In this document: positions 9,165 through 19,070 of the stretch, piece after piece
Numbering within the stretch: the stretch's first letter is position 1
Layout: each line of letters begins with the position of its first letter
IMG/VR virus record: IMGVR_UViG_3300027749_000261
Span: 1-36,916 of that record
Strand: one strand, 5' to 3'
Length of the DNA stretch: 36,916 nucleotides
Origin: a virus
Made by a program: the position numbers and the translations under genes
Notes under the pieces: generated by a model
Told to the model about the DNA's origin: nothing
Databases searched by the model: none
The model's input: only the letters and a program-made list of their open reading frames with translations

Positions 9165-9201
9165 TCTTGGTGGGCGGAGAACCCAACCGAGGAGGCATTA
9201 A

Positions 9202-10708: not shown

Positions 10709-10861
10709 ATGGAACTCCACTACGTCTGCTCTCTTTGTCAATCTATTGTCATTATTCACCGAGGCGACCTAAGCAGAATTATGTTTGGCAAACTTCCAAA
10801 CAAGCTCTTAGAAGCCGAGACAAAACACAAGTGCGTCAGCACACGAAAGGCAGTTGCATGA
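10709..10861 (+). CDS. small CxxC protein, unknown function
   Basis: This 50-aa protein carries CSLC near residue 7 and one further Cys near the end, so a partial zinc site is possible. The same frame is open back to a GTG at 10610, but the terminator at 10645-10682 lies inside that extension. The extension also looks non-coding, so I chose ATG 10709. The stop overlaps the next ATG (ATGA). No family recognised. Confidence 0.5.
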   Translation: MELHYVCSLCQSIVIIHRGDLSRIMFGKLPNKLLEAETKHKCVSTRKAVA

Positions 10862-11358
10862 ACGACATCAAAACACCTTTTCCAGGCGACATTGTCTTTG
10901 CTCACTCAAACGGTGTTGCTGGTCGTTTAATACGCTTTGGAGAGTTTCTAAGATGGCGCAAAGGCAGCCACTGGAATCACGCTTGCGTTGTTTCTCGCAT
11001 TACCCAAGACGGAACGGTTTACGTTATTCAAGCTGACATTAAAGGCGTGAACGAAGCCTTGCTGGAATCAGTTGGCGAATACATAATCCTTGACCCACCT
11101 GCAAGGGTAAATCGCAACAAGATTTTAGCGTTTAGCAAAGCGCAACTAGGATCATCTTACGGACTGCTTTCAATAGGTTCAATAATCGTGGACATTATTA
11201 CGCCATCGTGGTTCCCTGCTATGCGTCGTAAAAACTCATGGATTTGCTCTGCCGTAACTGGCGAGGCTCTTCGCTACGGTGGCTGGCTTTACAACTTCCC
11301 CGACATCTACACCGTCACTCCGGCGCAGCTCTTTGATGCATTGGAAAACACTCCTTAA
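10858..11358 (+). CDS. permuted NlpC/P60-type (YiiX/YebB-like) cysteine hydrolase
   Basis: This 166-aa protein starts with 'PGDIVFAHS', then 'GSHWNHACVV' (His41), 'YVIQADIKGV' and, late in the chain, 'SWICSAVTGEAL' (Cys130). His before Cys is the circularly permuted papain-like order of the YiiX/YebB group within the NlpC/P60 superfamily. Members act as amidases or peptidases on peptidoglycan or lipids. A hydrophobic stretch near residues 103-120 may be membrane-associated. It lies far from the lysis cassette, so a role early in infection is as likely as lysis. ATGA overlap with the upstream gene supports the start. Confidence 0.65.
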   Translation: MNDIKTPFPGDIVFAHSNGVAGRLIRFGEFLRWRKGSHWNHACVVSRITQDGTVYVIQADIKGVNEALLESVGEYIILDPPARVNRNKILAFSKAQLGSSYGLLSIGSIIVDIITPSWFPAMRRKNSWICSAVTGEALRYGGWLYNFPDIYTVTPAQLFDALENTP

Positions 11359-11370
11359 GTACTGTACAAT
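11341..11370 (+). promoter_or_regulatory. promoter for the small RNA (TTGGAA-18-TACAAT)
   Basis: TTGGAA at 11341-11346 and TACAAT at 11365-11370 are separated by 18 bases. The -35 lies inside the end of the preceding gene. The expected start is near 11376, and a terminator follows at 11413, leaving room only for a short untranslated RNA. Confidence 0.55.
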
Positions 11371-11375
11371 TACAG

Positions 11376-11456
11376 AACGCTGAACAAGCGATTTGAGCCT
11401 CCTCGCTCTTCTAAATCCCCTCACTGGCCTCGACTCCGGTGGGGGGATTTTTCTGT
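11376..11456 (+). ncRNA. candidate small RNA with anti-Shine-Dalgarno hairpin loop
   Basis: An RNA of about 80 bases is predicted between the promoter at 11341 and the terminator at 11413. Its first hairpin pairs GAA (11382-11384) with TTC (11409-11411) and AGCGA (11387-11391) with TCGCT (11403-11407), around a small internal loop. The 11-base apical loop TTTGAGCCTCC (11392-11402) presents CCTCC. GCCTCCTC (11397-11404) is an exact complement of GAGGAGGC, the ribosome-binding site of seven genes in the window; GAGCCTCCTC pairs over ten bases with the site before 17270. A C-rich loop plus terminator hairpin is the build of known target-binding small RNAs (for example actinobacterial 6C RNA). 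It contains no credible ORF. Existence and function are inference. Confidence 0.5.
11413..11456 (+). terminator. strong intrinsic terminator
   Basis: Arms 11413-11427 and 11436-11450 pair over 15 bp with two G-U pairs (outer part AAATCCCC with GGGGATTT). The loop has 8 bases, and TTCTGTT follows. It is the strongest terminator-like structure in this part of the window. Confidence 0.85.
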
Positions 11457-11461
11457 TATTG

Positions 11462-11490
11462 TTGCAATCAGTGTCCACATGGTGTACGAT
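11462..11490 (+). promoter_or_regulatory. promoter (TTGCAA-17-TACGAT)
   Basis: TTGCAA (11462-11467) and TACGAT (11485-11490) with a 17-base spacer lie between the terminator and the next gene. The spacer contains GTGTCCA at 11471-11477, the same half-site that forms a palindrome in the 16469 promoter. Confidence 0.5.
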
Positions 11491-11528
11491 TACTAAGTCC
11501 ACCAAAAGGACAAGGCCGAGGAGGGCTT

Positions 11529-11801
11529 ATGTTGCAGACAGTAAATCAGTGCTTTGCTTGCGAACTAATAGACGTAGGCAAGTGGCAGAACTCGCATGAG
11601 TTTATGTGCTTTGAGTGCATGGATCAGTACGAGCTAACGATAGTAAAGAATGTTTATCCGCAACCGGAGGAAATGTGCAAACCACAGTTACAGAATGGAA
11701 TGGCCTTGCGACTGGCGACGACCTCAAAGTTAAGGGAGAACGCGGCTACTACAAGTTCCGTTCGGCTGCACTTGATGAAGACGGAGCAGTCAAATGGATA
11801 A
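11529..11801 (+). CDS. small zinc-ribbon-like protein
   Basis: The ATG has GAGGAGG upstream. The first ~50 residues contain CFAC and CFEC pairs separated by ~20 residues, the layout of a zinc ribbon. The remaining ~40 residues overlap the next gene by 127 bases in another frame and are low in structure. The real end of function may lie before the overlap. No family name can be given. Confidence 0.5.
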   Translation: MLQTVNQCFACELIDVGKWQNSHEFMCFECMDQYELTIVKNVYPQPEEMCKPQLQNGMALRLATTSKLRENAATTSSVRLHLMKTEQSNG

Positions 11802-11905
11802 CCGTAATAGGTGGCCCAATGCACCACTCATCATTTCGTCACTTTACAGCAGACCGTATAACTCCAAAGAAAATAGGAAGGAGGAAGAAAAGTGAAACTA
11901 ATTGA
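11675..11905 (+). CDS. small conserved actinophage protein, unknown function
   Basis: This 76-aa protein starts at GTG with GGAGG five bases upstream. It contains 'TEWNGLATGDDLKVKGERGYYKF', here residues 5-27, a pattern I associate with small actinophage proteins of an SH3-like beta fold with 'W.GL..GD.V.V.G.RG.F.F'. It ends in a basic tail. The upstream in-frame extension to ATG 11615 lacks a ribosome-binding site. It overlaps the next gene by 14 bases. Confidence 0.55.
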   Translation: MQTTVTEWNGLATGDDLKVKGERGYYKFRSAALDEDGAVKWITVIGGPMHHSSFRHFTADRITPKKIGRRKKSETN

Positions 11906-12321: not shown

Positions 12322-12354
12322 AATATAAACAAATAGAAGCCTGAGGAGGCACAA

Positions 12355-12957
12355 ATGAATAGCAGTGAAATCAACGAATTGGCGGCGGCTCTTGTAGCAG
12401 CTCAAGGTGAGTTCAGTGCAGTACCGAAGGGCGCAGTCAATCCCTTCTTTAAGAGTAAGTATGCAGCTCTGCCTGATGTAGTGGCGAGTGCTAGTCCGGT
12501 GTTGTCTAAGCATGGGTTGGCAATTAGCCAGCACATCACTTACGACGAGAACGGCAACGATGCGCTTATGACCTACTTGATGCACAAGTCAGGGCAATAC
12601 ATTGCTTACTCAATGAAGTTGCACCTAGTCAAAGATGATCCGCAAGCGCAAGGGTCGGCGGTTACTTACGCTCGACGCTACTCATACATGAGTGTTCTTG
12701 GACTTGTTGCAGACGAGGATGACGATGGCAACCGAGCGACACAGGCACAAGCAAGGGTTATCAAGAAGCCAGCCGAACTGACACCTGGACAAGAGAAGCT
12801 GAAGGCCGCACTTGGCAAGAAGTTTAAGGAAGCCAATGACCGCAAGACTTGGGTCGAGTCAGTAGTGTTCCATGACATTAAAGGCATTGCCGAATTGACA
12901 GAAGAAGAAGTAGCACTATGCAGTATCCAACTAGCCTTAGAGGAGGCAAAAGCATGA
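12355..12957 (+). CDS. erf: Erf-family single-strand annealing protein
   Basis: This 200-aa protein carries the ERF signature in order: 'NPFFKSKYAALPDVV' (about 29-43), 'VLSKHGLAISQ', 'AYSMKLHLVKDDPQAQGSAVTYARRYS' in two parts and 'SVLGLVADEDDDGN'. ERF proteins anneal complementary single strands and partner with an exonuclease in phage recombination and genome circularisation. Here the likely partner is the YqaJ-type exonuclease at 19071. The helical C-terminal half (after residue 130) is variable in the family. GAGGAGGC lies four bases before the ATG. The gene overlaps ssb by ATGA. Confidence 0.9.
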   Translation: MNSSEINELAAALVAAQGEFSAVPKGAVNPFFKSKYAALPDVVASASPVLSKHGLAISQHITYDENGNDALMTYLMHKSGQYIAYSMKLHLVKDDPQAQGSAVTYARRYSYMSVLGLVADEDDDGNRATQAQARVIKKPAELTPGQEKLKAALGKKFKEANDRKTWVESVVFHDIKGIAELTEEEVALCSIQLALEEAKA

Positions 12958-13976: not shown

Positions 13977-14014
13977 CGTGGTAAGGGAAAATCCCTGCGC
14001 CAGAGGAGGCACAG

Positions 14015-16468: not shown

Positions 16469-16518
16469 TTGTGTCCACCAACTGGACACGCTATAATTTA
16501 GGTATCACCAAATGGTGA
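16469..16518 (+). promoter_or_regulatory. promoter with two overlapping palindromic operators
   Basis: TTGTGT (16469-16474), a 17-base spacer and a perfect TATAAT (16492-16497) make the best sigma-A-like promoter of the window. The palindrome GTGTCCA-CCAAC-TGGACAC (16471-16489) covers the -35 and spacer. A second palindrome TCACC-AAAT-GGTGA (16505-16518) lies at the expected start of the RNA. Binding at the first would block polymerase; the second could be another operator or an RNA hairpin. Confidence 0.7.
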
Positions 16519-16536
16519 ATGTCTGAGGAGGCAAAG

Positions 16537-17247: not shown

Positions 17248-17269
17248 AAGAGCAAATGAGGAGGCTCGC

Positions 17270-19044: not shown

Positions 19045-19070
19045 TCAATTAGAGCTTGAGGAGGCACTAA

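Follow-up and report, generated by a model that had tools for sequence, protein, structure and literature searches.

The window analysed here, a 36.9-kb contig of an uncultured virus taken over its whole length, is likely to encode a trans-acting phage small RNA of about 80 nt, which would pair with the ribosome-binding sites (RBSs) of the phage's own early regulon and probably repress them. All the main genes of this contig lie on the + strand. A WhiB gene, together with an exonuclease whose relatives in cultured phages are found mostly in actinobacteriophages, point to an actinobacterial host. On the + strand, an amidase-like gene is followed by a promoter (P1), a short RNA region, a terminator, a separate early promoter (P2) and the first early gene (Table 1).

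The first-pass annotation had described the RNA region as a complete transcription unit lacking an ORF, with a promoter, a hairpin exposing an anti-Shine-Dalgarno (anti-SD) loop and a strong terminator. Promoter and terminator are both present at 11341-11370 and 11413-11450. The exposed C-rich loop was also recovered, but not the 4-bp stem drawn around TTTGAGCCTCC (-1.9, outside the minimum-energy fold). The favoured fold consists instead of a CGCU/AGCG stem-loop, then GAGC-(CUCCUC)-GCUC, then the terminator. The -35 box of P1 is weak, and chance alone would produce promoters as good as this one at least as often in the window (8 found versus 11.7 expected). As a single promoter match is no better than chance, the case for P1 rests on conservation. 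The best TANNNT -10 box lies at -8 to +11 from the amidase stop in other phages, a signal partly due to the stop codon TAA/TAG itself, and individual promoter calls are weak. The conserved core of the amidase begins at about 10861 in the amidase alignment, and a weak match to Peptidase_C92 was obtained with the L113 ortholog only.

Table 1. Features of the small-RNA locus and its putative target sites in the window
Feature	Position	Strand	Remarks
Target GAGGAGGC before gene 9202	9189..9196	+	
Papain-like (C92-like) amidase ORF	10735..11358	+	Directly 5' of RNA unit; phrog_1128, E=7e-11
Promoter P1, TTGGAA-18-TACAAT	11341..11370	+	CTGTACNATTA kept in all four close relatives outside coding sequence
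Predicted small RNA, about 79 nt	11377..11455	+	Start deduced from -10 box; fold z = -5.3
Anti-SD hairpin GAGC-(CUCCUC)-GCUC	11395..11408	+	-3.6 kcal/mol; loop bases 98-100% unpaired
CCTCCTCG core of anti-SD hairpin	11398-11405	+	Retained in all four close relatives
Intrinsic terminator, 15 pairs	11413..11450	+	Arms covary between relatives
Early promoter P2, TTGCAA-17-TACGAT	11462..11490	+	Separate from P1; spacer with near-palindrome 11473-11487
CGAGGAGG, SD of first early gene (start 11529)	11518..11525	+	8-bp match to RNA
Target GAGGAGGC before gene 12355 (ERF ssDNA-annealing protein)	12343..12350	+	
Target GAGGAGGC before gene 12954 (SSB)	12940..12947	+	
Target GAGGAGGC before gene 14015	14003..14010	+	Orthologs: CCTGAGG where RNA has CCTCAGG
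Target GAGGAGGC before gene 16537	16525..16532	+	
Target GAGGAGGCTC, 10 bp, before gene 17270 (phrog_1123)	17258..17267	+	
Target GAGGAGGC before gene 19071 (RecE exonuclease)	19058..19065	+	

The complement of the loop had been reported before seven early genes. We indeed found seven copies of GAGGAGGC on the + strand, versus 0.74 expected on both strands, each just 5' of a start codon (ORF starts in the target scans were computed, not annotated). The sole further copy lies on the - strand, opposite the candidate loop, whose reverse complement it is. The ten-base pairing announced before gene 17270 was confirmed at the site GAGGAGGCTC, and GAGGAGGG before 11529 constitutes an eighth partner of the RNA. 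The predicted pairing energies of the window RNA with these eight targets range from -18 to -28 kcal/mol, versus a mean of -9 for 30 other starts. Two further readings of the first-pass annotation were discarded. A decayed RBS on the minus strand is ruled out, as no ORF begins there and the + strand unit is kept in relatives. Competition for ribosomes does not follow either: the sense of the RNA is that of the 16S tail, the wrong polarity for such a competitor, and it would thus bind messages.

The same region was found in three IMG/VR contigs, at 94, 80 and 76% identity. Alignment of these close relatives showed that the -10 stretch CTGTACNATTA, the CCTCCTCG core and the terminator are preserved within otherwise diverging intergenic sequence, and that the terminator arms vary in matching pairs. 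In the most diverged of them, G002, the flanks UUCC/GGAA can again close a hairpin around UCCUC; two folds compete there and the loop is partly paired.

In order to find the slot in other phages, we used the amidase as a marker in alignment-based scans, which yielded additional loci. The relatives all come from metagenomic contigs, many being fragments, and represent eight independent clades; the many exonuclease relatives without an amidase slot were set aside. The slot behind the amidase is filled in 22 of the 23 amidase-clade contigs analysed, across eight divergent clades, by a short RNA region with a C-rich segment, followed by a terminator and then by an early promoter with its gene. The C-rich segment is carried in the hairpin loop in the window clade and in clades B, C, E and F, and at the 3' foot of the hairpin in clades D, G and H; the clades have layout in common rather than sequence. 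The stem of clade D shows compensatory changes at 4 of 6 pair positions, its loop CATC and foot ACCTCC being invariant. No element of this kind follows the more distant amidases (about 38-47% identity). We also looked for relatives that lack the loop and keep GAGGAGGC, and found the opposite: L137 (L186), the lone amidase-clade phage without the RNA, has RBSs of the AAAGGGA type and no GAGGAGG.

In most of these freshwater phages, the unpaired C-rich segment of the RNA is complementary to a phage-specific extended SD code present at several early genes: GAGGAGGC, seven times, in the window, and CCUGAGG, GGGAGGAUG or GACUUAGGAG in other phages. The RBS motif of each phage was taken as the most enriched 7-mers just 5' of start codons, chosen blind to the RNA. 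In 15 of 22 phages, the RNA contains the reverse complement of a top-five 7-mer, for 0.2 expected from other segments of the same contigs, and the probability that a segment of this size matches by chance is 0-5% per phage. The seven phages without such a match or a multi-gene code are six clade D phages and L143, whose RNA matches the first gene only, over ten bases, at the non-canonical SD CAGGAGATGG. Cognate RNA-code complementarity exceeds non-cognate complementarity, both when phages are permuted (P = 5e-5) and by clade (P = 1e-4, exhaustive permutation of the eight clades); permuting whole clades removes most of the effect of relatedness from this test. CCUGAGGAGG stands before the genes of clades B and E, and there the pairing involves the CCUGAGG 5' extension, the 5' part of which is not read by 16S rRNA, which reads AGGAGG.

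At orthologous genes, the code changes in step with the RNA. Before RecE, it is GAGGAGGC in the window clade, CCTGAGG(A) in L138, L139, L144 and L151, and TAGGGAGGA in L117, and each version fits the RNA of the phage that bears it. The same holds for the orthologs of gene 17270 (GAGGAGGCT, CCTGAGG, GAGGAGGT and TTAGGAG), and those of gene 14015 likewise switch between GAGGAGGC and CCTGAGG. Targeting of orthologs is not constant across clades, SSB being targeted in the window clade only. Compensatory changes of RNA and target are present at several unlinked targets, and without action of the RNA in trans it would be difficult to account for matched code changes at genes kilobases away. The proposal that the RNA pairs with the RBSs of the whole early set thus finds strong support in its coevolution with them across eight phage clades.

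In the mechanism that we propose, transcription of the small RNA would start at a dedicated promoter, P1, and stop at a dedicated terminator. The hairpin of this RNA would present the C-rich segment to the extended SD code of about eight genes of the same phage, among them RecE, ERF, SSB and the first early gene. With the SD masked by pairing, ribosomes would translate these genes less, and the target messages might also be destabilised. In the other clades, an RNA occupying the same slot would bear a different C-rich segment matched to its own code. The role of the RNA could be to reduce or stop early functions, for instance once replication has started or the early promoters have been shut. 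We infer both its transcription and the repressive effect of pairing from sequence; as the pairing covers the SD, repression of initiation is the most likely outcome. The RNA may limit recombination and replication functions, since the targets of known function are RecE, the ERF annealing protein and SSB. A role in lysogeny is speculative because no integrase was found, neither tyrosine nor serine recombinases being detected in 19 records, most of them fragments.

Matches to the first early gene are long in several phages (10 bp in L143 and L156, 9 in L144, L117 and G002), and in L143 this gene is the sole cognate RBS match. This could reflect a block in cis, where read-through from the upstream operon or from P1 would fold the anti-SD segment onto the SD of the first early gene, without any free RNA. 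However, the distant RecE, g17270 and g14015 sites match equally well or better and coevolve with the RNA, later genes match better than the first one in L147 and L151, and a strong terminator separates the two segments, which makes this explanation unlikely. Alternatively, the amidase transcript could simply end here, the region being its 3' UTR and terminator and the C-rich stretch an accident; the amidase stop codon immediately precedes the region, and promoter matches are weak when taken singly. We find this highly implausible in view of the RBS-motif match in 15 of 22 phages, where chance would give 0-5% per phage, and of the conservation of the -10 box, CCTCCTCG and the terminator.

Coevolution shows pairing and not its direction: the RNA might pair with early messages and raise their expression or stability, or mark them for a phage RNA-binding protein. 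The invariant loop CATC of clade D, which pairing does not explain, could be accounted for in this way. The paired bases nevertheless overlap the SD, an arrangement that usually blocks initiation, as demonstrated experimentally for NfeR1 on ntrB (PMC10746234), and we regard activation or marking as improbable. A generic anti-SD RNA devoted to host shut-off, whose matches to phage genes would be a by-product of pairing between a C-rich loop and SD sequences, would suit clade D, where the RNAs bear a generic ACCUCC that resembles the 16S tail and the phages show no special code. Elsewhere, by contrast, the loop fits the divergent, even non-canonical, code of its own phage better than the codes of other phages, and we give host shut-off little credence.

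The trans-acting repressor RNA that we favour appears likest in its action to c4 of phages P1 and P7 and to the bacterial anti-SD RNAs NfeR1/alpha-r14 and 6C; it is a member of none of these groups as judged from sequence. The c4 gene precedes its target and shares its orientation. The window loop is complementary to the RBS of the downstream gene over 8 bp, and such matches reach 10 bp in other phages; the match between RNA and first-gene RBS is weak or absent in clade D and L151. In P1 and P7, this short phage RNA pairs in trans around the RBS of its target, the complementary sequences probably lying in loops (PMC12197685, PMC8546580). Whereas c4 is a 77-base RNA processed from a longer transcript and controls one antirepressor operon, the RNA described here has a predicted promoter and terminator of its own and about eight dispersed genes sharing one code. 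The predicted succession of separate P1, terminator and P2 would argue against c4-like processing from a transcript shared with the target.

NfeR1 and alpha-r14 expose an anti-SD motif in unpaired regions of hairpins with divergent stems and block initiation at multiple targets (PMC10746234). The phage RNA shares with them an unpaired anti-SD segment in a hairpin, divergent stems and multiple putative targets. In contrast to these bacterial RNAs, which have three CCUCCUCCC hairpins and metabolic targets, it presents one C-rich segment (CCUCCUC in the window) that varies between clades and follows the phage's own code. The C-rich loops of 6C RNA / B11 of actinobacteria pair with G-rich 5' UTRs (PMC10470900); 6C is a host gene with two C-rich loops, whereas the phage RNA has one and no match to Rfam 6C. 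Highly expressed non-coding RNAs of unknown function have been reported in mycobacteriophages L5 and D29 and in Rhodococcus phage WC1 (PMC5712189, PMC10986025). They come from a region of about 500 bp at the genome end, and the sections of these two reports used here describe no target or anti-SD code.

At the gathering threshold, neither the window nor ten related loci matched an Rfam family, and nothing credible appeared at E up to 10 (231 bases), c4 and 6C being absent. The best Rfam match, NsiR1, was rejected: it reached 19.5 bits where 39 are needed and reflects a hairpin-plus-terminator resemblance. The INPHARED cultured phages yielded neither a DNA match nor a relative of the amidase, the bacterial and archaeal genomes scanned contained no relative, and a DNA pattern for the leader gave three matches, all attributable to chance.

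We see even chances that these RNAs form a widespread phage small-RNA family, undescribed in open PMC papers, that acts as a translational master regulator through a lineage-specific RNA-SD code. Most phage small RNAs known to date regulate a single gene or act on a gene of the host; the RNA found here appears to reach an entire group of genes for replication and recombination via a common SD code. RNA and code diverge together between lineages, which makes natural compensatory mutants available. A coevolving code would explain why the SD sequences of these phages differ from the best 16S match, and it suggests what the abundant actinophage RNAs, so far unexplained, might do. If true, it could set apart immunity groups when related phages co-infect, in the way that c4 does for P1 and P7.

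Several other features of these loci were observed. Most of the 23 phages have a 15-base near-palindrome (6-3-6, for example GTCCACgtgGTGGAC in L144) in the region of their early promoter, often between the -35 and -10 boxes; in the window it is found at 11473-11487, in P2, and at 16473-16487, in a second early promoter. It looks like a repressor operator, which suggests that a repressor may act at P2 but not at P1. The invariant CATC of clade D is present in the hairpin loop of L109, L111, L112, L113, L116 and L134 and does not pair with the SD; it is possibly a protein-binding site or a second pairing site. The early leaders of clade D might be structured 5' UTRs: in L111, L112, L113, L116 and L134, a CGAAGCGCAGTA-like segment lies some 20-50 nt upstream of the first early gene, just 5' of the SD, and a short variable stem flanks it. 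Finally, a small early gene matching DUF7246 (11675-11905 in the window) is conserved beside the RNA locus in many of these phages.
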